From positions 310,001 through 374,000 of the forward strand of contig JAPOVL010000013.1 in the NCBI GenBank assembly GCA_026708115.1: a stretch of 64,000 nucleotides of DNA. Direction: 5' to 3'. Within the stretch, counting starts at the first letter, position 1. Each line of letters opens with the position of its first letter. The notes under the pieces are model-generated. The model was not told where the DNA came from and did no database searches. It saw only the letters and a list, made by a program, of their open reading frames with translations. The translations under genes were made by a program, and so were the position numbers. Positions 5,368-39,298 of this stretch are shown here, piece after piece. This DNA is from Chloroflexota bacterium. GTDB lineage: Bacteria; Chloroflexota; Anaerolineae; Aggregatilineales; Phototrophicaceae.

Positions 5368-7368
5368 CTAGTCGTCGAGAAGCGAATTGACGGCTTCGGC
5401 GACATGCCCTGGTGTGAGACCGAGTTCTTCGTAGATTCTCGTGTAGGGCGAACTGGCGCCGAAGCGGTCGATCCCCAGCGCGATCCCTTCGTCGCCGATA
5501 TAGCGTTCCCAACCGAGCGTGGCCCCCGCTTCAATGCTGACGCGGCGACTTATGTCGGCGGGCAAGACGCTCTCGCGATAGTCGTCGCCCTGCTCTTCAA
5601 AACGCTTCCAACAGGGCATGGAAACGACTCGCACGCGGATATCCGACTCTTCGAGCAGTTCTGCGGCTGCCAGCGCGATGCTCACTTCGCTGCCGGTCGC
5701 CACAATGATCGCGTCAATGTCGCCGGACTTATGTTCGGAAAGCACGTATGCGCCGCGGGAAACGCCTTCGTGTATGCCTTGGTCGTTGCCGGCGAGCACC
5801 GGCAGATCCTGCCGACTGAGCACGATAGCTGCCGGATGATAAAGCTCGGCGATGGTTGCCCAGGCTCCGACAGTCTCCGTGGCATCTGCCGGCCGGAATA
5901 CATAAAGATTGGGCATGGCGCGCAGCGCCATCAGATGTTCAACGGGCTGATGGGTAGGTCCGTCTTCGCCCAGGCCGATGCTGTCGTGCGTGAAGACGTA
6001 GACCGTTGGGATGTCCATCAGGGCGCCCAGGCGCATCGCCGGACGCATGTAGTCGCTGAAGGTGAAGAATGTGGCGCTATATGGCTTGACGATTCCCCCG
6101 TGCAGCGCCAGACCGTTGACGATAGCTCCCATCCCGTGCTCCCTGACGCCAAAGCGCAAATTGCGTTCCGTCCCCCGTCCGGGACCCGTATCCCGGGCGT
6201 CTTTGATCAAGGTCTTGGTACTGCCGGCCAAGTCAGCGTCGCCGCCGATCATGGTCGGCGCATGGCGGGCCAGCGCGTTCAACGCGTCCCCGCCGGCATT
6301 GCGCGTGGCGATCGTTTGACCGGCTTGCCAACGAGGCAAATCGTCGCGCCATCCCTCGTTGAATTGCCCGGCCTGGGCGCGATCCCATTCGTTTGCCAAA
6401 TCGGGATATGCGCCGCGCCAAGCGTCAAACGCGCGATTCCATTCCGCTTCTGCAGCCGCGCCCGTATCAATGGCGCTGCGGAAGTGCTGCAGAGCCTCTG
6501 CCGGAATGAAGAATTTGGCATCCGGATCCCAGCCGAGAGCTTCTTTCGCCAGCCTTACTTCGCCCGCGCCGAGCGGACTGCCATGCGCGTCACTGGTTCC
6601 CTGCTTGTTGGGACTTCCGTGACCAATGATGGTGCGTACCGCGATCAGGCTCGGTTTGTCCCTGACGGATTTCGCCGCTGCAATTGCTTGATCAATTGCT
6701 ACGACGTCCGTACCGTCAGGTAACCAGCCATAATGCCATCCCATCGCCCGGAAGCGCATAGCGATATCCTCGGTGAATATCATATCGGCAGCGCCATCCA
6801 GTGTGATTTGATTGTCGTCGTACAGGAATATCAGCTTGCCTAAGCCCCAATGACCGGCCAAGGCCGATGCTTCTATACAGACGCCTTCCATTAGATCGCC
6901 GTCGCTGACGAGGGCATAGGTGTAGTGATCAACAATCGTTCGGTCGTTTCGGTTGAAGTGCTTGGCGAGAAACGCTTCCGCCAGCGCCAAACCTACGGCC
7001 GTGGCCGCGCCTTGTCCCAGCGGGCCCGTTGTAGTCTCTACGCCAGGCGTATCACCGTATTCCGGATGGCCCGGTGTGCTGCTGCCGAATTGCCGGAAAT
7101 TCTTTATTTCCTCAAGTGACAGGTCATAACCGGTAAGATGCAAAAGCGAATAAAGCAGCATCGAACCGTGCCCGGCGCTCAATACGAAGCGATCACGATT
7201 TGCCCAGTTCGGGTTTTTCGGGTTATGGCGGAGATGCTTCATCCACAGCGTATAGGCCAGTGGGGCGGCGCCCATCGGCAAGCCCGGATGGCCGCTGTTT
7301 GCCTTTTGCACCGCATCCATTGACAGGGTCCGGATCGTATTGATCGCCAAAGTCGCTAATTCTGCCAC
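5368..7368 (-). CDS. tkt: Transketolase
   Basis: 666-aa [65 protein letters not shown]. Confidence 0.97.
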
Positions 7369-8028: not shown

Positions 8029-8516
8029 TCATCCCCCTTCTTGTCGGGAACAACCTTCACAATACGTGGAATAACGTTAACGCGATTTTACAACTTTTTC
8101 CGCCGTAAGTCCAACAAATATGATAAATTATGCAGAAATCTATATCACTTACGATACTTTAACCTGTAACAATCAAAATGACATCTTATTTGTGGCAAAC
8201 GAAACTATAAGAAAGGCGAAATCGATTTAGCCGACTCTTCTGCGGAAGTCAGCGCGCCATGTCATCGTCGGATGGGAACGTATCAGAGATGGCAGGGAAT
8301 CTCAAGGATATCCCTGTCCGGAAGGCGCCCTGTGGCGGGGCAAGGGATAATCCAGCGCTCTGGTTTGCATAGATTCGGACGATCAGAAAATGTGGCTCTT
8401 TGGAGGCGCTAAGAAATCGCTTTCGCGGTCACCCTGTAAAGCCGCTGCGCTAGTCGTTAAAATCAGCCTAGGCGCCGGAGCCCGTCGGCGCGTCATCAAG
8501 CGGAATTGGAACCGCC

Positions 8517-11375
8517 ATGCAATTCACCACGCCAACTGCTGGACTGATACTGCTGATCACTTTGCCAATAGTCTGGTATGTGGGCTTTCCACGTCACGCT
8601 TTTCGCCGCCGCCGCGATATCACCAGCTTGGCGTTGCGAACGGCGATTGTTGTGCTGCTTGTCCTGGCCCTGGCGGGATTGCAGAGTGTGCAGGCGGTTG
8701 ATCGGCTGGCGGTGGTCTTCCTGGTTGACGCTTCCGATAGTATGGGCACTGCGGCCGAAGACGCGCAATTGCAGTACATTCGCGGGGCGATCGCCGACAA
8801 GCAGCCCGACGACGAATGGGCGGTCGTCTTGTTTGGCGACAACGCGGTGCCAGAGAGCGATTTCAGCCGCGTACAAGAGATTGATGGATTCTCGTCGCTG
8901 CCGGTCGCGACGCATAGCGATATCGCTAATGCCATTCAGACAGCGCTATCAATGTTCCCGGCCGATGCTTCGCCGCGCATCGTTGTTCTTAGCGACGGGC
9001 AGCCGACACAGGGCGACGCCCTCGCGCGCGCCCAACGCGCCGCGGCTTCGGGCGTCGAGATTAGCTATGTGCCGTTTTTCCGCGAGGCGCAGCCCGACGT
9101 AAGAATTACAGAATTGGACGCCCCAAGCCGCGTCGGTGAAAACCAGAGCTTCGATATCGCCGTCGGCATCCATGCCGAGGAAGCGACATCTGCGACGCTG
9201 TTGATCTTCTCGGGTGGAAGCCTGATCCACGAGGAGGCGCTGAACTTGCAGCGGGGCGACACGCGCTTTGCCCTCACTCAGACCAGCGACAAGAGCGGTT
9301 TTCTTGATTTCACTGCGCAACTGATCGTACCGGGCGAGAGCGACAACTACAATCAGAATAATCAATTGGCGGCTTTCAGCCAGGTGATCGGCCCGGCGCG
9401 CGCGCTGCTGGTTCGTGTGAGCGAGGCGGAAGCGCAGAATCTGTTGCCGGCGCTGGAGCAAGCCGGTCTGCTGGTAGACGCGGTGCCGCCAGGAGCCCTG
9501 CCGGTAAACATGGCTCAACTGGCCAATTACAAGAGTGTCATTTTGGTCAATGTTCCGGCTACCGAATTGAGCAATGCCCAGATGAATCTGCTGGATCAGT
9601 ACGTCAGCGACATTGGCGGCGGCCTGGTGATGATTGGCGGGCCGGAAAGCTATGCGCCTGGGGGATACTATCAGACACCTCTGGAGCGTACCCTGCCAGT
9701 AGAGATGCAGATCAAAGATCAGCAACGTTTGCCCAAATTAACGATTGCCTATTTGATTGATCGCTCTGGCAGTATGGGGCAGATCGGTCGCAGCGGTGTA
9801 CCCAACCTGGAATTGGCGAAGCGGGCAATCGTACTTTCGCTGAGTTTGCTGCAACCGAGTGACCGGGTTGCCATCGGCACCTTTGATACCGGCGGCGCCT
9901 GGGTCGTGCCGTTTCAGCAAGTCAACGACGCGCAGGCGCTGGTCGCCATGACCAATACCATTCGATCGGGCGGCGGCACTGACATTTTGGCGGGCTTGCG
10001 CCTGGTGGAACGAGATATCATCAACGAGCCATCACAGTTGAAACACCTAATCCTGCTGACCGATGGCGGCGCAAGCCCAACCGGATTGGTGGAATTGACC
10101 GGCTTGCTGCACGAGCAGTTCGGCGTCAGCTTATCGTCTATTGCGATCGGTCGCAATCCGGCGGAGTTTCTGGAGCGAATGGCCGAAGCGGGCGGGGGCA
10201 ATTATTATCACGTGGCGGACGTAGCGCAGATTCCCTTGATCTTCGCGCAAGAGACGGTCTTGGCATCGCGCTCTTATATCGTCGAAGAAGACTTCACCGC
10301 GCGTGTGACGGGCAGTAACGCGATCATTGACGGCATCAGCAGCTTCCCGCCCTTGCGCGGGTACGTAGCGACCACGCCCAAGACCGCCGCCCAGCGCATC
10401 CTCAGCGGGCCCGAACCCTATTCCGACCCGATTTTGGCCTCCTGGCAATATGGCTTGGGCCGCGTCGTGGCCTGGACCTCGGACGCGAGCGCGCGCTGGG
10501 CGAACGAATGGGTGGCATGGGATGACTTCTCGCGCTTTTGGGGGCAGGCGGTTAACTGGAGCATCAACGCAGGAGCGAACAACAACCTGGAGACGCGTAT
10601 CGGCTTGGAAGATGAATATGCGCGAATCGTGGTTGACGCGCGTGACAACGCGGGACAGTTCTTGGACGGCTTGTTGCTGAGCAGCGCTGTATTGAACCCC
10701 GCCGGCGACAGCCGTCGCATCCCCTTGCTGCAGACGGCGCCGGGCCGCTACGAAGCCACCTTCAAACCGCAGAACGAAGGGGCGTATTTCTTGACGATCA
10801 ATGGCCAGGCGCAGCTTGATGACGGCGACACGGCGCTAAGCGATCTCAATGGATGGGTCTTGTCCTATTCTCCCGAGTACATTCCTCGCGAACCGGATGA
10901 CCGGCACTTGGCGGCAATCGCCGAGCTAACCGGCGGCAGCAATCTGGCGCAGGATCCAGCGGATGTCTTCGCCCACAATCTGGGAGAGCGGCAAGCAGCG
11001 GTTGGCATTTGGCAGAACTTGGTCTTGCTGGCGCTTGTCTTGTTGCCATTGGATATCGCAGTCCGGCGCTTGATCATTACGCGGGGCGATTTGGCGCGCC
11101 TGCGCGCGTACTTGACCGGCCGTCAAAGTGAGGATCAGCAGCGAACACAGCGCTTGCAGGCGCTGCTCAACGTGCGCAGTCGCAGCCGAGACGCGACTGG
11201 ATACGGTGAAGCGCCACGGATTGATCCCGCTCCGAACGCTGCGGGGCCTCCGACCTTCGGACGTCCCGCGCCGGCGCGATCGGCGGGCGATCCGCCCGAG
11301 CCCGCGCCGGCAGACAATCTTGGCGCGAGGCTCTTGCGCAGCCGGGGCAGGCGCCACAACGAGATTGAAGATTGA
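8517..11375 (+). CDS. Large VWA-domain membrane protein (BatA-like N-terminus)
   Basis: N-terminal TM helices; two VWA MIDAS motifs (VFLVDASDSMG and IAYLIDRSGSMG) and GATase-like segment GGGLVMIGGPESYAPGGY. Confidence 0.88.
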   Translation: MQFTTPTAGLILLITLPIVWYVGFPRHAFRRRRDITSLALRTAIVVLLVLALAGLQSVQAVDRLAVVFLVDASDSMGTAAEDAQLQYIRGAIADKQPDDEWAVVLFGDNAVPESDFSRVQEIDGFSSLPVATHSDIANAIQTALSMFPADASPRIVVLSDGQPTQGDALARAQRAAASGVEISYVPFFREAQPDVRITELDAPSRVGENQSFDIAVGIHAEEATSATLLIFSGGSLIHEEALNLQRGDTRFALTQTSDKSGFLDFTAQLIVPGESDNYNQNNQLAAFSQVIGPARALLVRVSEAEAQNLLPALEQAGLLVDAVPPGALPVNMAQLANYKSVILVNVPATELSNAQMNLLDQYVSDIGGGLVMIGGPESYAPGGYYQTPLERTLPVEMQIKDQQRLPKLTIAYLIDRSGSMGQIGRSGVPNLELAKRAIVLSLSLLQPSDRVAIGTFDTGGAWVVPFQQVNDAQALVAMTNTIRSGGGTDILAGLRLVERDIINEPSQLKHLILLTDGGASPTGLVELTGLLHEQFGVSLSSIAIGRNPAEFLERMAEAGGGNYYHVADVAQIPLIFAQETVLASRSYIVEEDFTARVTGSNAIIDGISSFPPLRGYVATTPKTAAQRILSGPEPYSDPILASWQYGLGRVVAWTSDASARWANEWVAWDDFSRFWGQAVNWSINAGANNNLETRIGLEDEYARIVVDARDNAGQFLDGLLLSSAVLNPAGDSRRIPLLQTAPGRYEATFKPQNEGAYFLTINGQAQLDDGDTALSDLNGWVLSYSPEYIPREPDDRHLAAIAELTGGSNLAQDPADVFAHNLGERQAAVGIWQNLVLLALVLLPLDIAVRRLIITRGDLARLRAYLTGRQSEDQQRTQRLQALLNVRSRSRDATGYGEAPRIDPAPNAAGPPTFGRPAPARSAGDPPEPAPADNLGARLLRSRGRRHNEIED

Positions 11376-18029: not shown

Positions 18030-18042
18030 GCTGACTCCTGTT

Positions 18043-18134
18043 TCTATAAACCGCGTCGCTCATGCGACGCGGCGGCTCACAATTTTGCCTGAGCTCGGCA
18101 TTCCTGTAGTCTTCTCGCTGCCGCCGAGCGGCTG
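18043..18134 (+). repeat. Interspersed intergenic repeat, copy A
   Basis: TATAAACCGCGTCGCTCATGCGACGCGGCGG...TTTTGCCTGAGCTCGGCATTCCTG...CTCGCTGCCGCCGAGCGGCTGT; hairpins CGCGTCGC-TCAT-GCGACGCG and GCCGC-CGA-GCGGC. Confidence 0.8.
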
Positions 18135-18221
18135 TCATCTGTCGGCGTCTAATTGAGTGGGCTTCAATGTTATAATCGTATTGCTTGCGCTCGTGATCCA
18201 TTCTAGCGAGGGTTCCATGCC

Positions 18222-24123: not shown

Positions 24124-24174
24124 ACGATGCGAAGCCAATCCGGGCGCGCGAGCCTCGCTTAACCGCTGCCCCTG

Positions 24175-24270
24175 TTTTAATAAACCGCGTTGCACATGCA
24201 ACGAGAAGGCTTGTTATTTTGTGTGAGCGCGACATTCCTGTGGACGATTCGCTGCCGCCGAGCGGCTGTG
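24175..24270 (+). repeat. Interspersed intergenic repeat, copy C
   Basis: TTTTAATAAACCGCGTTGCACATGCAACGAGAAGGCTTGTTATTTTGTGTGAGCGCGACATTCCTGTGGACGATTCGCTGCCGCCGAGCGGCTGT. Confidence 0.9.
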
Positions 24271-31730: not shown

Positions 31731-32654
31731 ATGCCAGAGCCAAAATTCCACCTGACTGCCGAGACGAGCAAACAGCGACTTGACCTCTTTGTGCTGGAGC
31801 GTCTGGAGGGATTGTCACGCGCGCAGGCGCAAAAGCTAATCCGCGCGGGTCGCGTGCTGGTGAATGGCAGGGTCGAGAAAGCGGGCTTCCGTTTCAAAGG
31901 CGGCGAGCGCGTTGAGATCAATCTGCCCCTTAGTGAAGAAGTTTCAGTCGAACCGGAAGATATCGAACTGGAGATCGTCTACGAAGATGACGATCTGACG
32001 GTGATCAACAAAGCGGCGGGCATGGTTGTGCATCCGGGCGCGGGCAACAGGGGTGGCACTCTTGTTAATGCGTTGCTGGCGCGCTATCCGGAACTGGCGG
32101 CGATGATCGACGATCCCGAAACCGGCGATCGCCTGGGCCTCGTCCATCGCCTCGACCGCGGCACCAGCGGACTGATGGTGACCGCGCGCAAGAAAACGAT
32201 CTTGCTGGCGCTGATGAGCCAGTTCCGGGAACGGGGCGTGGACAAGCGCTACCTGGCGCTGTTGGAAAAACGGCCCAAAAGCGACAAGGGATTGGTCGAC
32301 GCGCCCATCGCCCGCGATCCGCGTCAGCGCAAGCGCATGTGGGTGACGCGCGAGGGCAAGCCCGCCCAGACCGAGTTCGAGGTGCTGGATGATGATTTTC
32401 AGGGAAACCGGGCTTTGGTGGAGTTGTGCTTATTAACCGGACGGACGCATCAGATCCGCGTGCACATGGCCTTTATCGGCTGTCCTGTGGTAGGAGACAC
32501 GGTATACGGCTATCGCAAGCAGCGAGTGAAGTTGAAGCGGCAGTTCTTACATGCGAGCGAACTGGCCTTTGATCATCCGGCGACGGGCGAGCGGATGCGC
32601 TTTGAGTCTGAGTTGCCACGGGGCTTGGCGGACCTGATGAAGAAGTTGCGTTAA
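31731..32654 (+). CDS. RluA-family 23S rRNA pseudouridine synthase
   Basis: S4 domain RLDLFVLERLEGLSRAQAQKLIRAGRVLVNG; DRLGLVHRLDRGTSGLMVTAR; LLTGRTHQIRVHMAFIGCPVVGDTVYGYRK. Confidence 0.95.
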   Translation: MPEPKFHLTAETSKQRLDLFVLERLEGLSRAQAQKLIRAGRVLVNGRVEKAGFRFKGGERVEINLPLSEEVSVEPEDIELEIVYEDDDLTVINKAAGMVVHPGAGNRGGTLVNALLARYPELAAMIDDPETGDRLGLVHRLDRGTSGLMVTARKKTILLALMSQFRERGVDKRYLALLEKRPKSDKGLVDAPIARDPRQRKRMWVTREGKPAQTEFEVLDDDFQGNRALVELCLLTGRTHQIRVHMAFIGCPVVGDTVYGYRKQRVKLKRQFLHASELAFDHPATGERMRFESELPRGLADLMKKLR

Positions 32655-32662
32655 AGATTCAC
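32590..32662 (+). repeat. Native 3' end of the rluA-family gene, diverged duplicate at 35693-35765
   Basis: AGCGGATGCGCTTTGAGTCTGAGTTGCCACGGGGCTTGGCGGACCTGATGAAGAAGTTGCGTTAAAGATTCAC, 64/73 identical to the second copy (hand count). Confidence 0.9.
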
Positions 32663-33735
32663 TCGGCCGCGAGGTAGGTCAATACCGCTTGCTTGAGTTG
32701 TTCTGAGTACTTATAGATATCGAGTATGCTGTCGATCTCGACCCGTCCCTTATGTTCTCCATGAAAAAGGCTCAGGTACATTTTCGCTGGCTTGAAATGC
32801 AAGCGACAAATCGGTTGGCGATTGTCGTTGTCGAGCAGAATATTGCAGTACGGGCGTACGTTGCGCATAATGATCCTTGACGGGTCAATGATGTCGCGCA
32901 GAATCGCTTTTACCACATAGAAACCATCCATCTCGTCCTGCGCCGTTTCGCTGCCGGAGGGCGCTCTCTTGGCGGCCCTATCGTCTTCATTGTGGGCAGC
33001 GGCCCCGTTTTGACTAAGGCCCTCGGATCCAATGGGGGACGTCATCCGATTTGTGATCTTGGCGTTGATGAATTCACGAAAAGAATCCTTGAAGATTTCC
33101 CTAAACTCATCAAGTACGGACGCTCGTAGCCGCCCGGAATAAACTTGCCTGGTGAAGTGTCGGACAATTTCAGTTGAAGGTTCGTGGAATTCGGCCTCAA
33201 TCAGAAGACTGATTTCGCGCTTGTATTTCAATTGATTGGCTGTGGAAAGAATTTGATCCATATTGAAGATTGATTTGGTGAATTCTTTAAGCGCCGCTAC
33301 TTGTCGCGCGTCGAAATTCAGCATATCGACGATGAGGAAAGGCTTCTCGTCCATTTGGTTTGGCTTCTCGAGATCAGTATGGAACTGATACTGAATGCCA
33401 TTGGTCAGAATGCCGAAGCGCGCGTCCGTCGCGCTGAAGTAGCGAAAAAGCTGCGAGGCATGATCCCGGCTAAGATCAGATGTCGCGCACTTGGCTTCGA
33501 TGAGCATGATCGGCTTGCCGTCTCGCACGATCGCATAATCTACTTTTTCGCTCTTTTTGCTGCCTATGTCCGCTGTGTACTCCGGCACAACCTCGGTCGG
33601 ATCGAAAACGTTGTAGCCAAGCGCTTGAATGAAGGGCATGACAAAGGCGTTTTTGGTGGCTTCTTCGGTTTTGATGTATGCGAGCTGTCGTGGAGTTCTC
33701 GTCGAAATTTGAAGCATTCTGTCGATAAAGTCCAT
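32659..33735 (-). CDS. Stand-alone HsdR N-terminal (PF13588-like) nuclease-domain protein N1
   Basis: IKTEEATKNAFVMPFIQALGYNVFDP...KVDYAIVRDGKPIMLIEAKCATSDL...QLFRYF; PD-(D/E)XK pattern; no helicase domain. Confidence 0.85.
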   Translation of the reverse strand: MDFIDRMLQISTRTPRQLAYIKTEEATKNAFVMPFIQALGYNVFDPTEVVPEYTADIGSKKSEKVDYAIVRDGKPIMLIEAKCATSDLSRDHASQLFRYFSATDARFGILTNGIQYQFHTDLEKPNQMDEKPFLIVDMLNFDARQVAALKEFTKSIFNMDQILSTANQLKYKREISLLIEAEFHEPSTEIVRHFTRQVYSGRLRASVLDEFREIFKDSFREFINAKITNRMTSPIGSEGLSQNGAAAHNEDDRAAKRAPSGSETAQDEMDGFYVVKAILRDIIDPSRIIMRNVRPYCNILLDNDNRQPICRLHFKPAKMYLSLFHGEHKGRVEIDSILDIYKYSEQLKQAVLTYLAAE

Positions 33736-34013
33736 TGCTGCGCTCCTGATGAGACGATGAGTTTTCCATAAGGCGGAATGCGTCAATAATTGCAGATCGC
33801 AAGATTCGTATGATAGCGTTATATTTATACTTTTCAATATTAAGATATAACATATCTCATATTGAGTTCTCTTAGCTTTTCTCCGCCGCCCAGCAAAACG
33901 AACATCGGACCCGGCTTCAATGACAGTTTGGAGCTATTTCGTGATTTGCCCTTGGTCTTCTGGCGATAGATAAGCCTGTGGCGGTTTTGCTTGTTTCTGC
34001 GGTTTTGCTGATT

Positions 34014-34031
34014 AAGTTAGCGTGGGGCTTG
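34014..34031 (+). repeat. Possible short remnant of an rluA 3' end
   Basis: AAGTTAGCGTGGGGCTTG versus AAGTTGACGCGGGGCTTG of the 35.7 kb copy, 15/18; weak on its own. Confidence 0.3.
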
Positions 34032-34037
34032 ATTTGA

Positions 34038-34100
34038 ATAACTCGCGCATTCTGCTGATGAGGTCCATACTACTGCTCCGGTAAGAAAGGTCGATAAAAG
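34038..34100 (-). pseudogene. 5' end remnant of a fourth HsdR-N-like gene plus its upstream region
   Basis: Minus strand ATG GAC CTC ATC AGC AGA ATG CGC GAG = MDLISRMRE (cf. MDLIDKMREIS of N2); upstream GCTCCGGTAAGAAAGGTCGATAAA resembles N2 upstream GCTCCTGATGAGCGAGGTAGATAAA. Confidence 0.6.
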
Positions 34101-34418
34101 CGCCGCGCCGAACAATTACGGCTCCGAGATATAACAGAATATTTATGTTACTGAATGCATATTAGATTTCAATGCGCAGACTCTTGTCAATTTTTACAAA
34201 ATCGCTTGGTTTGATTTGTGTAATTGTGCTAAATTATATCGCTAATGAGCCAGTGTTTGCGGTTGTGTGTCAGTGGGAGCAGGGGGATGGGGTGGAGGAG
34301 TTGCGGAGGGATTTACCACAGAGGCTCAGAGGGTACAAAGAGCAACATCAACCACAAAGACACAAAGATCAGGAAGGTTTTGCTGGAGGGGTGCTAGATG
34401 GGGACGCGGGGCTAATCC

Positions 34419-35495
34419 CTAATCATCCGAATCATACTTTGCAACTGCCGCCTTTATCTCGCTGGCGTATTTGTAAATGTCGTCGACTGATTCAATAGGA
34501 ACACGTTCCTCGCTGCTGCCATCAAATAAACTTAAATACTTGGTCGACCTGTTGAAATGTAGCCTACAGATCGGCTGACGGTTGTTGTCGTCAAGTAAAA
34601 TACCGCAATATGATCGCACGTCTCGTATGAACACTCTCGACACGTCGATAGTTTCGCGTAGGATTGACTTGACTACGTAGTATCCGTCCAGCTCTTCTTC
34701 GGTAGTTTCGATACCATCTGACCGGTCTACAACCGCTTCGTCAATTGCACTCTCATCACCTGTCTCGACGCTGTTGCCTGCAGTCGAATCAATAGCGGTC
34801 TGCAGGCGATTAGCTATCTCATCGTTTAGGAATTCGCGAAGTGCCTGCTTCGTAATCTCAGTGAATTCGGCAATAACATTAGCCATCAAGCGTCCTGAAT
34901 ACACCCTACTGGCAAAGTGCCTTACGAAGTCTTCCGATGGCTGGTTGTACTCGCTTTCCAACAAGAGCTTGATTTCCCGCTTGTACTTTAGTTCGTTGGC
35001 GCTGGACAGGATGCGATCTACGTCAAATGCTGATTTCGTGAATTTCTTGAGTTGTGAAACAGAGCGCGGGTCAAAGTTGAGAATGTCAATAATGAGGAAA
35101 GGCTTCTCATCCATGTGATTGGCCTTTTCCAAGTCGGAGTGAAAGCGATATTGAAGGCCATTTGAAAGTATGCCAATTCGTGCTTCCGTCACGTTAAAGT
35201 AGCGAAACAGTTGCGATGCGTGCTCGTCGTTCAAATCCGACGTAGCTGACTTTACTTCTATCAGAATAATAGGTTTTCCATCTTGCATTATGGCGTAGTC
35301 AACTTTTTCATGCTTCTTTGTACCGACGTCGGCAGTAAACTCTGGAACAACCTCGATAGGATTGAATACGTTGTATCCCAGCGCTTGAATGAAGGGCATG
35401 ACAAAGGCGTTTTTGGTCGCTTCTTCGGTTTTGATAAACTCCAGTTGGCGGGGTGCCTGGTTAGATATCTCACGCATTTTGTCAATCAGATCCAT
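34419..35495 (-). CDS. Stand-alone HsdR N-terminal nuclease-domain protein N2 (paralog of N1)
   Basis: MDLIDKMREISNQAPRQLEFIKTEEATKNAFVMPFIQALGYNVFNPIEVVPEFTADVGTKKHEKVDYAIMQDGKPIILIEVKSATSDL. Confidence 0.87.
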   Translation of the reverse strand: MDLIDKMREISNQAPRQLEFIKTEEATKNAFVMPFIQALGYNVFNPIEVVPEFTADVGTKKHEKVDYAIMQDGKPIILIEVKSATSDLNDEHASQLFRYFNVTEARIGILSNGLQYRFHSDLEKANHMDEKPFLIIDILNFDPRSVSQLKKFTKSAFDVDRILSSANELKYKREIKLLLESEYNQPSEDFVRHFASRVYSGRLMANVIAEFTEITKQALREFLNDEIANRLQTAIDSTAGNSVETGDESAIDEAVVDRSDGIETTEEELDGYYVVKSILRETIDVSRVFIRDVRSYCGILLDDNNRQPICRLHFNRSTKYLSLFDGSSEERVPIESVDDIYKYASEIKAAVAKYDSDD

Positions 35496-35680
35496 TGTGG
35501 AGCTCCTGATGAGCGAGGTAGATAAATGTGTCGAAATGGACGTTTCGAAACTGGAATATTACACAATAAAATAATAACACTGCAATGCGAGGATTCAATG
35601 TAGAATCGGACAGAGTGGTTTAGGCGCTGGACGATCACCTTATAAGGCAGATCGAAATGTTTACGGATAACCGCAATATC

Positions 35681-35765
35681 GCTATCGCAAATAGCGGATG
35701 CGGTTTGAATCTAAGTTGACGCGGGGCTTGGCGGACCTGATGAAGAGGTTGCGCTAGGGATTCAC
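35681..35765 (+). pseudogene. Duplicated 3' end of an rluA-family gene with internal deletion
   Basis: 35693-35765 is 64/73 identical to 32590-32662 and keeps the frame ...RMRFESKLTRGLADLMKRLR*; 35681-35692 GCTATCGCAAAT matches rluA GCTATCGCAAGC, implying loss of the segment in between. Confidence 0.85.
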
Positions 35766-35787
35766 CACCGGAAGCACGGTACGTAAT

Positions 35788-36792
35788 TCACCGTCTGTAC
35801 TTGTGCTTACGCACCCTTTCGCGCAATTCCGCGTCAAAAAACAAGCGTCTAAGTGACAATACCTCAATGGTATCTGGGTCTGTGAATTGCCAGAAGTCCC
35901 ATCCGGAGACGAAAGATTCCTCAGGATTTACCGAACGTATTGCTTGGTCGGTCGCTTCTTGATAGTTCATTCTGTCATCTTCAAACACTACATTTCTTCC
36001 ATTTTTTTCCATTGGCTCGGTCACCAGTAACGTTGCTGTAAATCGTTGCCCACGATACTCAGCGAATAACTCGATCTCTGTTACGTCAGCCACAACCATC
36101 CCATATTTCGAAATATGGTTTTTCATTAACTCACTCGCCGCCTCCCGCAAGGCTACCGTGTATCTGTATATAGCGTCCGCCTCTGGCAATTCCATGGCTG
36201 TAACTTGTTTTGCAAAGAACGAGGCAAGTTCTCTTGAGGGTTGGCTTAATTCTCGTTTCAAGATGGGTATAAGAGCGCGTCGTCTCGCGACTGCGAGAAT
36301 ACGGTCAGAACTGAACTTTGCATTCGTAAACCATTCCAGGTCGTCTGCCAGCTTTCGTTCATCTTCGCCACAATTTTGGAAATCTATACGCAAGTCGAAT
36401 TCGAGAAACGGAACCTTGTCCATTATCTTAGCAGTATGAAGATCTGTGTAGAATCGATATTCACGTCCGTTTGTTAGAATTGCGATCTTTGCGTCTGACC
36501 CGCTGAAATAATCTTGGAGTTGCGGCAACCATTTCGATAAATCTTCCGTCGCGTGTTTGGCTTCTATCAGAATAATGGGCTGCCCATTGCGTTTTATCGC
36601 GTAATCAACGTAGCCATCATCCACTTGAGACTCTTCTTTAACCTCACGTGGATTTCCTGTTTCGAATCCAAGAGCAGATATAAACCGAATAATTAACATC
36701 CGTCTGGTTTCAGATTCATTTAGCTCGTGCGAGCGAACAGAGTTACGCTCGACGATTCCGGCAAGGTTACATAGTTCCTCAAGTAAAGTCAC
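35788..36792 (-). CDS. Stand-alone HsdR N-terminal nuclease-domain protein N3 (divergent)
   Basis: SETRRMLIIRFISALGFETGNPREVKEESQVDDGYVDYAIKRNGQPIILIEAKHATEDLSKWLPQLQDYF; C-terminus differs from N1/N2. Confidence 0.85.
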   Translation of the reverse strand: MTLLEELCNLAGIVERNSVRSHELNESETRRMLIIRFISALGFETGNPREVKEESQVDDGYVDYAIKRNGQPIILIEAKHATEDLSKWLPQLQDYFSGSDAKIAILTNGREYRFYTDLHTAKIMDKVPFLEFDLRIDFQNCGEDERKLADDLEWFTNAKFSSDRILAVARRRALIPILKRELSQPSRELASFFAKQVTAMELPEADAIYRYTVALREAASELMKNHISKYGMVVADVTEIELFAEYRGQRFTATLLVTEPMEKNGRNVVFEDDRMNYQEATDQAIRSVNPEESFVSGWDFWQFTDPDTIEVLSLRRLFFDAELRERVRKHKYRR

Positions 36793-36978
36793 TGCGATGC
36801 ACGCCTGTCCACTAAACTCATTTAGTTTCTGGCAAGTTTAGCATATAAGCTGTTACTTTTGTGCGCCTCTGTGGGCAGAGCAATCGCACCAAAACCAATA
36901 ACTGTCGAATGTCGCATAAATCTAGCAAAATGTAGGCGCGCTTTTTTGCATGACTAACTTGGAACTACTTCTGCCCCT

Positions 36979-37071
36979 CTTTTTTAGTAAACCGCGATTT
37001 GCGGTAGCCAAGCAGGTTTATTATTTTGTGTGAGCGCGGTAGCCCAAATTCGCTGCCGCCGAGCGGCTGTG
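36979..37071 (+). repeat. Interspersed intergenic repeat, copy D
   Basis: TTTTTTAGTAAACCGCGATTTGCGG...GGTTTATTATTTTGTGTGAGCGCGGTAGCCCAAATTCGCTGCCGCCGAGCGGCTGT. Confidence 0.85.
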
Positions 37072-37103: not shown

Positions 37104-38402
37104 ATGCAAACCACTACCTACCAACCAACAGCCTTCCACCTGATGACCAAGCCGCGAGGCGCCATCTGCAACCTCGATTGCAAGTACTGCTACTTCCTCT
37201 CCAAAGAACGGCTCTATCCCAACAGCGAATTCCGCATGTCGGACAACCTGCTCGAGGAATACATCCGCCAGTACATCGACGCCCAGCAGGTGGATGACAT
37301 CAACTTCGCCTGGCAGGGCGGCGAACCGACCCTGATGGGCGTCGAGTTCTTTCGTCAGGCTGCTCGCTATCAGCAGAAGCACAAGCGACCGGGCATGCGT
37401 ATCACTAACGCCCTGCAGACCAATGCCGTCACCCTCGACGACGAATGGTGCCAATTCTTCGCCGAAAACGACTTCCTGCTCGGCGTCAGCCTCGACGGAC
37501 CGGCCGACGTGCACGATTTCTACCGGGTTGACAAAGGCGGCAAGCCGACCTTCCATCGTGTCATGGCGGGCATCGAATTGCTGCAAAAGCACGGCGCCGA
37601 ATACAATATTTTGACCACCGTGCACGCCGCCAACGAAGGGCAAGGAGAGCGTGTCTACAGATTCTTGCGCGACGAAGTCGGCACAAGATTCATGCAATTC
37701 ATCCCCATCGTCGAGCGCGACAACGAGACCGGCTATCAAGAAGGTGACCAAGTCACGGACCGCTCGATCAGCGCCGCCGGTTACGGTCAGTTCTTGATCG
37801 ATATGTATGAAGAATGGGTGCGGCGGGATGTCGGGCGCGTCTTCGTGCAGATCTTCGACATTGCGCTGGCGGCTTGGACGGGCGCGCCGCCCGGCCTCTG
37901 CATCTTCGACGAGACCTGTGGGCTGGCATTGGCGATGGAACATAACGGCGATGTTTATTCCTGCGATCACTATGTCGAGCCGGACTACAAGCTGGGCAAT
38001 ATCATGGATATACCGCTCAATGAAATCGTCGTTATGGAAGAGCAGCGCGCATTCGGCTTGGCCAAGCGCGATACTTTGCCGCAGTACTGCCTCGATTGCG
38101 AGGTCAAGTTCGTCTGCAACGGCGGCTGCCCCAAGAACCGTTTCATCAATGCACCCGACGGCGAACCGGGCTTGAATTACCTCTGCGCCGGTTATCGCGC
38201 CTTCTTTAATCACGTAGGTCCCACGATGAACTTCATGGCCCGCGAGTTGTCGCAGCGGCGTCCGCCATCCAATGTCATGATGATGATGGCGCGTCACGAT
38301 GCCGAGATGGGGGCGGCCTTCGCCAAGGCCGGGCGCAACGATCCCTGTCCCTGTGGCAGCGGCCTGAAGTTCAAGCGCTGTCACGGCCAGCGGCGAAAGT
38401 AG
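37104..38402 (+). CDS. Anaerobic sulfatase maturase-like radical SAM/SPASM protein with C-terminal SEC-C motif
   Basis: KPRGAICNLDCKYCYFLSKERLYP (CxxxCxxC), SPASM-like CxxC clusters, C-terminal RNDPCPCGSGLKFKRCHGQ. Confidence 0.93.
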   Translation: MQTTTYQPTAFHLMTKPRGAICNLDCKYCYFLSKERLYPNSEFRMSDNLLEEYIRQYIDAQQVDDINFAWQGGEPTLMGVEFFRQAARYQQKHKRPGMRITNALQTNAVTLDDEWCQFFAENDFLLGVSLDGPADVHDFYRVDKGGKPTFHRVMAGIELLQKHGAEYNILTTVHAANEGQGERVYRFLRDEVGTRFMQFIPIVERDNETGYQEGDQVTDRSISAAGYGQFLIDMYEEWVRRDVGRVFVQIFDIALAAWTGAPPGLCIFDETCGLALAMEHNGDVYSCDHYVEPDYKLGNIMDIPLNEIVVMEEQRAFGLAKRDTLPQYCLDCEVKFVCNGGCPKNRFINAPDGEPGLNYLCAGYRAFFNHVGPTMNFMARELSQRRPPSNVMMMMARHDAEMGAAFAKAGRNDPCPCGSGLKFKRCHGQRRK

Positions 38403-38464: not shown

Positions 38465-38869
38465 ATGGAAGAGCCGACTAGGGAACTGCAAGTGCCAGCC
38501 TCGATTTTTGAGCGTGCGGAAGCGATCGCCCGCGATTGCGAACGTTCGGCGGAATCTGTAATGCTGGACGCGCTGTCGCTTTATTTCTGTGAGTTGCCAG
38601 CAATGGAGTCGGAGCCGGAAGCGCTGCAGGCTCTGGCAGACGAGCAGCTCTGGGCCCTCGTGCATCGGCGGATCACGCCGAAACAAGACGCTCGCCTGCG
38701 CGAATTGCTAGATCTTGGCAATCAGGGACGGATTCACAGCCGGGATGAGGGCGAATTGGCTCGGTTGGTAGCATTGGTGGATCAGCAGATGGTGCTGCGA
38801 TCGAAGGCGCTTGTCCTGTTGCAGCGGCGGGGGCATGATATCGACCAGTATTTTGACTCCGCGATATAG
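38465..38869 (+). CDS. Hypothetical protein paired with downstream HNH nuclease
   Basis: 134-aa ORF ending 3 nt before the HNH ORF; TRELQVPASIFERAEAIARDCERSAESVMLDAL resembles an RHH-like N-terminus. Confidence 0.75.
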   Translation: MEEPTRELQVPASIFERAEAIARDCERSAESVMLDALSLYFCELPAMESEPEALQALADEQLWALVHRRITPKQDARLRELLDLGNQGRIHSRDEGELARLVALVDQQMVLRSKALVLLQRRGHDIDQYFDSAI

Positions 38870-38872
38870 CGG

Positions 38873-39298
38873 ATGTCGCGCGTAACCGCTGGCATCCGTC
38901 AGCAGGTCTACGAACGCGCCAGGAGACAGTGCGAATACTGCCAGACGCAGCAGAAGCTCGTCGTGACTATGCAGATCGACCACATTATTCCATTGGCGGC
39001 CGGCGGCGCGACAGCGATGGACAATCTGTGTCTTTCCTGCGTGAGTTGCAATAGCAACAAGCGCGACTTTCAGTTTAGGATTGATCCGGCTACTGGTACG
39101 CATGCGCGTCTCTTTCATCCGCGGACGCAGCGCTGGGCGACCCACTTTTGCTGGCGCGACGATGGTCTTTGCATAGTTGGCTTAACCGCGACCGGACGCG
39201 CGACGATTAACCGTCTGAGAATGAACGGCACGGCAATGCTAGAATCGCGCGGCGAATGGGTTGCAATGGGCAAACATCCACCAGTTTCAAGAAGCTGA
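38873..39298 (+). CDS. HNH endonuclease
   Basis: CEYCQTQQKLVVTMQIDHIIPLAAGGATAMDNLCLSCVSCNSNKRD. Confidence 0.93.
   Translation: MSRVTAGIRQQVYERARRQCEYCQTQQKLVVTMQIDHIIPLAAGGATAMDNLCLSCVSCNSNKRDFQFRIDPATGTHARLFHPRTQRWATHFCWRDDGLCIVGLTATGRATINRLRMNGTAMLESRGEWVAMGKHPPVSRS

Follow-up and report, generated by a model that had tools for sequence, protein, structure and literature searches.

Why should the last codons of a housekeeping gene recur downstream of that gene, among stacked nuclease genes? The question is raised by an rluA-family pseudouridine synthase gene of a Chloroflexota bacterium (Phototrophicaceae), in a stretch of 64,000 nucleotides (nt) that we call the window (contig JAPOVL010000013.1, positions 310,001 to 374,000; G000:C56:310001-374000) and that comes from a 4.83 Mb draft genome. 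We report here that units made of a replacement tail and one or two genes, mostly for nucleases, have been imported into the rluA gene end, that the old tail was displaced, and that such units have become stacked. We consider it slightly likelier true than false that the locus is a stack of mobile endonuclease cassettes homing into the rluA 3' end and replacing the gene end. The array, which is bounded distally by a divergent radical SAM/SPASM gene (rSAM), has the following parts, N denoting a nuclease gene with an HSDR_N domain.

31731..32654, + strand, rluA-family pseudouridine synthase gene, the host gene (PF00849, PseudoU_synth_2, 5e-33; PF01479, S4, 3e-12)
32590..32662, + strand, proximal rluA tail, functional, taken as the reference for the 73-nt repeat
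32659..33735, - strand, N1, HSDR_N (PD-(D/E)XK) nuclease cassette gene, convergent with rluA (PF04313, 4.5e-17, for the longer open reading frame, ORF)
33980..34068, - strand, remnant of another, decayed N gene, 5' end only (72.5% identity over 91 nt with the corresponding end of N2 of genome G021)
34268..34314, + strand, old decayed rluA tail relic between N1 and N2 (local score against a shuffled null)
34419..35495, - strand, N2, HSDR_N nuclease cassette gene (PF04313, 6.9e-18)
35693..35765, + strand, second rluA tail (relic), downstream of N2 (64/73 to the first tail; E=4e-9 against an rluA tail profile; kept in genome G017)
35788..36792, - strand, N3, divergent HSDR_N nuclease cassette gene (PF04313, 1.1e-11)

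Is the repeat real? As the preliminary description of this locus had claimed, the rluA 3' end recurs in direct orientation (88% identity), and the repeat comprises the last 20 codons, the stop codon and the start of the downstream flank. The best score of the second tail is 59, compared to a maximum of 19 for shuffled tails. Only five gene-end duplications of comparable geometry, the rluA case included, were present in an 864-kb sample of the same genome. We also confirmed that N1, N2 and a decayed N 5' end lie between the two tails and N3 beyond them; N1, N2 and N3 all carry HSDR_N and are encoded on the reverse strand, and the E, VDYA and E-x-K motifs of N1 are intact. The relic at 34268-34314, overlooked in that description, is much older than the second tail. 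It scores 19 against a null maximum of 17 (0/100 shuffles), and the orthologous place in G017 scores 23 against 18 (0/100); the tails are short, relic detection close to the threshold is subjective, and the direction of time is one that we infer. With this relic added, an rluA tail precedes each of N1, N2 and N3.

All genomes used here are draft assemblies, a circumstance that would favour an artefact of assembly or a chance similarity. The independent genome G017, however, carries the same gene order, the same second tail and the same junction, and this refutes an assembly artefact. Relics are moreover present in many genomes with lineage-specific sequences, the best of them matching at E=6e-16, and we regard an artefactual or chance origin as having practically no standing.

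The motif GATTCAC at the end of the repeat was considered as the core of an attachment site and was rejected, because it merely opens a short sequence (GATTCACCACAGAGG...) that these loci contain at many positions. Sequences resembling GATTCACCACAGAGGCGCAGAGGGC, present at 35759-35766 of the window and in the rluA-rSAM intervals of relatives, follow gene ends in many of the genomes compared; they form a dispersed intergenic repeat that can mimic an attachment core.

Is the arrangement fixed? In a set of 34 genomes of the genus, rluA was located in 32 and the rluA-rSAM interval could be classed in 29. The interval holds one to four reverse-strand cassettes, each carrying either N (about 360 amino acids, one to three N genes per interval) or cc, a gene for a small coiled-coil protein with a hydrophobic C terminus. 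The presence/absence variation that the preliminary description proposed to look for in sister genomes was found, with other cassettes in place. The layout of G017 is that of the window; G022 has rluA, N1 and N2 followed by a different N, G021 has N2 alone at the rluA locus, and G008 and G009 have a single unrelated N each. The N type is uncoupled from position, in that a type that stands alone in one genome can be an additional cassette elsewhere. Orthologues of N2 are found in G022 (96%), G017 (93%), G021 (92%), G045 (84%) and G046 (77%), and an orthologue of N3 in G017 only (84%). The N proteins are extremely diverse, with a median identity of 33%, and the catalytic E, D (of VD) and E-x-K are kept in 38-39 of 40. 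A dispersed transposon was rejected as an explanation, as N2-like genes, present in 15 of the 25 genomes searched, are confined to the rluA locus in all 15. With N3 as the query, 30 of 34 genomes gave matches, and the single extra copy outside the locus is in G021. In G023, a pair of N genes has moved together with rSAM. At the other end of the host gene, most genomes of the genus (L045, L046, L048 and others) have a further HNH gene that overlaps the rluA start codon or lies right against it; the clade of the window does not.

Where do displaced tails occur? The loci were oriented and scanned with a profile built from the final 66 nt of rluA. Besides rluA itself, all matches with E<0.2 are on the + strand, between rluA and rSAM, and just before the stop of the next cassette gene. 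Relic tails occur only at cassette junctions, in 14 of 18 multi-cassette genomes and in 0 of 11 single-cassette genomes (Fisher P=5e-5, a value that serves only as a guide because the genomes are related). In the four multi-cassette exceptions (G018, G022, G046 and G049), relics are weak or recognisable by eye. On an rpoB tree, relic presence needs at least six changes and N stacking at least five, so that several independent events are required.

Another explanation is a local tandem duplication of rluA tail plus N followed by divergence, a process consistent with the direct repeat and with the paralogy of N1 and N2 (61% identity). Identity between a relic and the resident tail reaches 96%, whereas the N genes that flank a relic are typically 30-40% identical. 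The cassette after a relic is, in addition, orthologous to single cassettes of other species. The contrast between relic and N identities refutes local duplication, which we hold to be very improbable; where the preliminary description had left the choice between duplication and import, import stands.

Which tail is native? We aligned the 200 nt that follow a relic to the flank of the intact rluA stop codon in relatives. The scores were 102 (G024 against G046), 85 (G024 against G011), 120 and 118 (G014 against G001 and G041), 80 (G006 against G044) and 63 (G007 against G015), whereas the proximal rluA flanks of the same genomes scored 8-21. The DNA after a relic thus matches the native DNA after the stop codon of relatives, indicating that the cassette entered between the gene body and its native tail. 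Tail exchange is also visible in the coding sequence. In the clade of the window, the three N1 carriers have 92.6% identity over the last 45 coding nt of rluA, compared to 73.7% for other pairs, while the body of the gene draws no such distinction (89.0% versus 87.5%); the last ~15 codons of rluA in the window are of this cassette-linked type. The relic of G022 is closer to the tail of G021 (36/45) than to its own proximal tail (24/45). In carriers of the main cc type, rluA ends with TGA-CTA inside the cc gene, and the relics keep TAG-G. The earlier suggestion that the second tail came from a functional divergent homologue holds for relics as a class; in the window, both tails are of the same 'RGLADL' type, and G021, G008 and G009 have rluA ends of a 'VGLRNV' type.

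Is this anatomy peculiar to rluA? The preliminary description had confined it to that gene, where it stands; the same arrangement was found at the 3' end of rSAM and at the 5' end of an amidohydrolase gene. In the window, rSAM is followed by its associated cassette.

37104..38402, + strand, rSAM, radical SAM/SPASM gene with a SEC-C tail (PF04055, PF13186, PF02810)
38465..38869, + strand, HNHup, ORF paired with HNH in the rSAM-associated cassette; in relatives it immediately precedes HNH at the 3' end of rSAM (no match in a Pfam search)
38873..39298, + strand, HNH endonuclease gene of the rSAM-associated cassette (PF01844, 1.7e-12)

The HNH gene has one other copy only in the genome. In relatives, rSAM is itself a host gene: HNHup-HNH cassettes lie between the intact gene and a displaced SEC-C tail, and tail relics were found in eight relatives. 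The displaced rSAM (SEC-C) ends are at these places.

L040:5483-5575 (oriented coordinates)
L041:5669-5761 and 6662-6708
L043:5972-6067
L046:6816-6950 (oriented coordinates)
L048:7266-7347
L109

The flank after an rSAM relic scored 128 for G010 against G018, 100 for G016 against G012, and 44-46 in three more genomes, compared to 7-29 for the proximal rSAM flanks of the same genomes (G010 29, G016 7). The extra N copy of G021 (G021:C293, L106:6821-9703) adjoins the start of an amidohydrolase gene, and the opening 83 nt of that gene are duplicated on the far side of N with 83% identity. In G043 (G043:C98, L167:1402-1885), a cc gene lies between the 3' end of a SpoU/TrmH-family gene and a repeat of that gene's final 62 nt (61/62 identical). 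In six other genomes with a cc gene after SpoU a relic was not detectable, and the flank test at other cc loci gave a gene-end copy in G043 only, most dispersed cc genes being without one.

Several further repeats were seen. Upstream of the intact RidA gene there are further copies of its first 26-49 codons (L052:6074-6151, L105:5933-6010, L046:7609-7755 and 8410-8547, oriented coordinates), so that 5'-end duplications also occur in this neighbourhood. The intergenic sequence before rSAM in the window (36876-37020) recurs at many places in the genome, with up to 98% identity over 65 nt, and is a dispersed repeat family. A 106-nt direct repeat (78%) at 18030-18135 and 24165-24269, each copy beside the stop codon of a reverse-strand ORF, looks like another intergenic repeat.

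What kind of enzyme is N? It is an HSDR_N-domain nuclease (PF04313/PF13588), above the curated cut-off and with the PD-(D/E)XK residues present. Proteins of the N1/N2 type have 358 amino acids and consist of HSDR_N only, without a helicase or translocase domain, and neither hsdM nor hsdS was found among the neighbouring genes; on these grounds a type I restriction enzyme HsdR was rejected. A search of solved structures with N gave Cas4 as the sole match (E=2e-4), which adds little beyond PD-(D/E)XK. A fold search gave no match at E<=0.001, the closest, not significant, being the nuclease domains of BpuSI and HsdR, and PADLOC matches were weak and partial. Solitary HSDR_N genes of the N2 family with the same domain architecture are found in many phyla, and outside the genus none was found beside rluA. 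In a Porphyromonadaceae genome, a solitary HSDR_N gene lies between direct repeats of ~115 nt (84%; L240:1025-1136 / 2488-2606) that seemingly contain a tRNA 3' end. A terminator-like repeat surrounds an N relative in L272.

How might such a stack be built? The comparisons above show that a cassette consists of a replacement rluA tail and a reverse-strand gene, and that it inserts where the rluA body meets the native tail. The incoming tail becomes the working end of rluA, and the native tail is pushed downstream and decays. Repeated entries stack cassettes with displaced tails between them, the newest presumably beside the host gene. An HNH cassette has treated the neighbouring rSAM in the same manner, and one N cassette has jumped to a different gene, at its 5' end. 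According to the homing reading, the HSDR_N or HNH nuclease would cut the end of the gene in an allele that is unoccupied or has another tail; the cut gene would be repaired from incoming donor DNA, for example from transformation, by copying the donor tail and cassette, and would be rejoined to the old tail. A recoded tail would shield the new allele from the same nuclease. For both N and HNH, such cleavage is a prediction. A nuclease-made break would account for the restriction of junctions to the last ~100 nt, the fidelity of N to its locus, the presence of a nuclease in two cassette types out of three, and the recoding of the tail in genomes with N1.

The junctions allow this reading to be weighed against two others. 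Despite differing N types, a right-end sequence just before the relic is common to the N cassettes of three genomes (G005, G016 and G044) and, in a looser form, to those of G024 and G046, and the relics of these five genomes start ~63 nt before the rluA stop. A genus-wide search found this right-end motif at the arrays only, plus one match with three mismatches, and a dispersed repeat was rejected as its explanation. Relics of the cc type start ~35 nt before the stop, so that the left boundary of a relic differs by cassette type (about position 1, 29 or 37 of the tail). The boundary at rSAM is looser and its right junctions vary; in G010 and G024, the right end of the cassette contains a piece of the RidA start.

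The variable rSAM junctions and those that run into RidA are consistent with passive accretion, in which donor DNA would recombine homologously within the rluA or rSAM body and join illegitimately near the recipient tail, the cargo being useful (defence) or neutral and the nucleases uninvolved. The same process has been proposed as a source of stacked displaced ends in Vibrio type VI secretion system (T6SS) and Rhs loci (PMC5361080). It sits less well with other observations. The junctions at rluA and rSAM are always in the last ~100 nt of the host gene and never in its body; five N-type junctions from several lineages lie near one point, and three or four of these share the right-end sequence; and N is confined to one locus. 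Illegitimate joining is described as orders of magnitude rarer than homologous recombination (PMC5361080), yet at least five to six changes are needed on the rpoB tree. We regard passive accretion as a serious though rather unlikely explanation.

Site-specific integration, with the recombinase supplied in trans and the 3' end of rluA serving as attachment site in the manner of an integron or island, would explain ordered stacking with the newest cassette beside the host gene, the replacement 3' end (which islands seated in gene 3' ends also bring) and the conserved right end of several N cassettes. The preliminary description had reported no visible integrase, and indeed every ORF of at least 80 amino acids in the intervals is N, cc or a short spurious frame; for integrons specifically, no integrase-sized ORF was found in the rluA-rSAM intervals, and no dedicated attI/attC or IntI search was made. 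Unlike a constant attachment core, the left boundary of the relics varies by cassette type and at rSAM. A member of the N family has, in addition, entered a gene at its 5' end, and the right-end sequence is absent elsewhere in the genomes. We therefore judge a recombinase in trans improbable. Of the two options that had been offered for the locus, repeated import of a module of rluA tail and nuclease is retained, and an attL/attR-style site is not supported, as the cassette types are unrelated, the relic boundary varies and an integrase is lacking.

Several points weigh against homing. The cc cassettes have the same anatomy and encode no nuclease, which passive accretion would readily accommodate. 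Apart from the N1-linked tail, the proximal tails of carriers are not visibly recoded, and in the window both good tails are of the new type, so that its native tail is not identifiable there. Single-cassette genomes are without the second tail that WHO elements, discussed below, use as right-hand homology in homing. Around 80 N relatives from many phyla outside the genus, flanking direct repeats showed no excess (5/65 compared to 4/122 control positions, P=0.28). The usual setting of an HSDR_N domain is a restriction enzyme. Homing in a haploid cell needs donor DNA; ComEC, present in 34 of 34 genomes, permits DNA uptake and is too common to prove competence.

The homing reading can be widened into a more general proposal, which we rate somewhat short of an even chance: that there are bacterial homing elements that replace the ends of housekeeping genes, built independently on PD-(D/E)XK and HNH nucleases, in which recoded ends would immunise and stacks would form a fossil record, and for which 5' ends and a non-nuclease passenger may also be possible. 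If homing is true, gene-end replacement arose independently in bacteria with unrelated nucleases and would be a route open to selfish endonucleases in general. Solitary HSDR_N and HNH genes otherwise filed as defence or unknown would gain a role, the import-driven evolution of the last codons of some housekeeping genes would be explained, and relic tails would be dated fossils giving the order of invasions. Even under passive accretion, the 34 genomes taken together preserve a record of end-replacing insertions that is unusually clean.

How does the array compare to known systems? In the open-access literature, our coverage of which is incomplete, we found no bacterial counterpart of homing that replaces a gene end, and its novelty is thus provisional. 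The displacement of Rhs C termini and the immunity arrays of Vibrio T6SS loci are similar in being bacterial, in that imports displace an older 3' part and leave stacked remnants, and in the lack of an integrase (PMC5361080). They differ in that a variable effector or its immunity gene is displaced there, whereas here a conserved housekeeping enzyme has its tail displaced and what is imported is a nuclease gene in its own right.

Free-standing homing endonucleases of T4-like phages have genes beside their target and spread by cutting unoccupied alleles. They belong to phages and not to a chromosome, and replacement or displacement of a gene end is not in the model.

According to passages of PMC3630166, an endonuclease ORF in the mobile ORFs of fungal mitochondria (atp6 of Allomyces; atp6, atp9, cox2 and nad3 of Glomus) brings an in-frame foreign C terminus, and the native C terminus is displaced downstream, as here. 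The setting differs in being an organelle genome with LAGLIDADG and GIY-YIG enzymes, and those passages do not describe long stacks.

WHO elements at FBA1 of Torulaspora and Lachancea yeasts form stacks of endonuclease genes downstream of the host gene, some of them convergent with it (Coughlan et al. 2020, PMC7282813). Each entry replaces the host 3' end, displaced fragments lie between the cassettes, and the newest cassette is nearest the gene; the elements are limited to certain genera, with rare jumps to other loci (PMC7282813). The locus described here agrees with them in each of these respects, among them the stacked endonuclease genes beside a conserved host gene, the displaced 3' fragments and the replaced host 3' end. 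In WHO elements and mitochondrial mobile ORFs, an endonuclease is proven or proposed to be at work. It differs in lying on a bacterial chromosome, in the length of the replaced tail (~35-95 nt, compared to ~400 in WHO), in having non-nuclease cc cassettes, and in its enzymes, which are HSDR_N (PD-(D/E)XK) and HNH proteins of putative cleavage activity, whereas those of WHO are of the intein type with a zinc finger. By analogy, the rluA array appears to work like a WHO element, although it is not a member of the WHO protein family.

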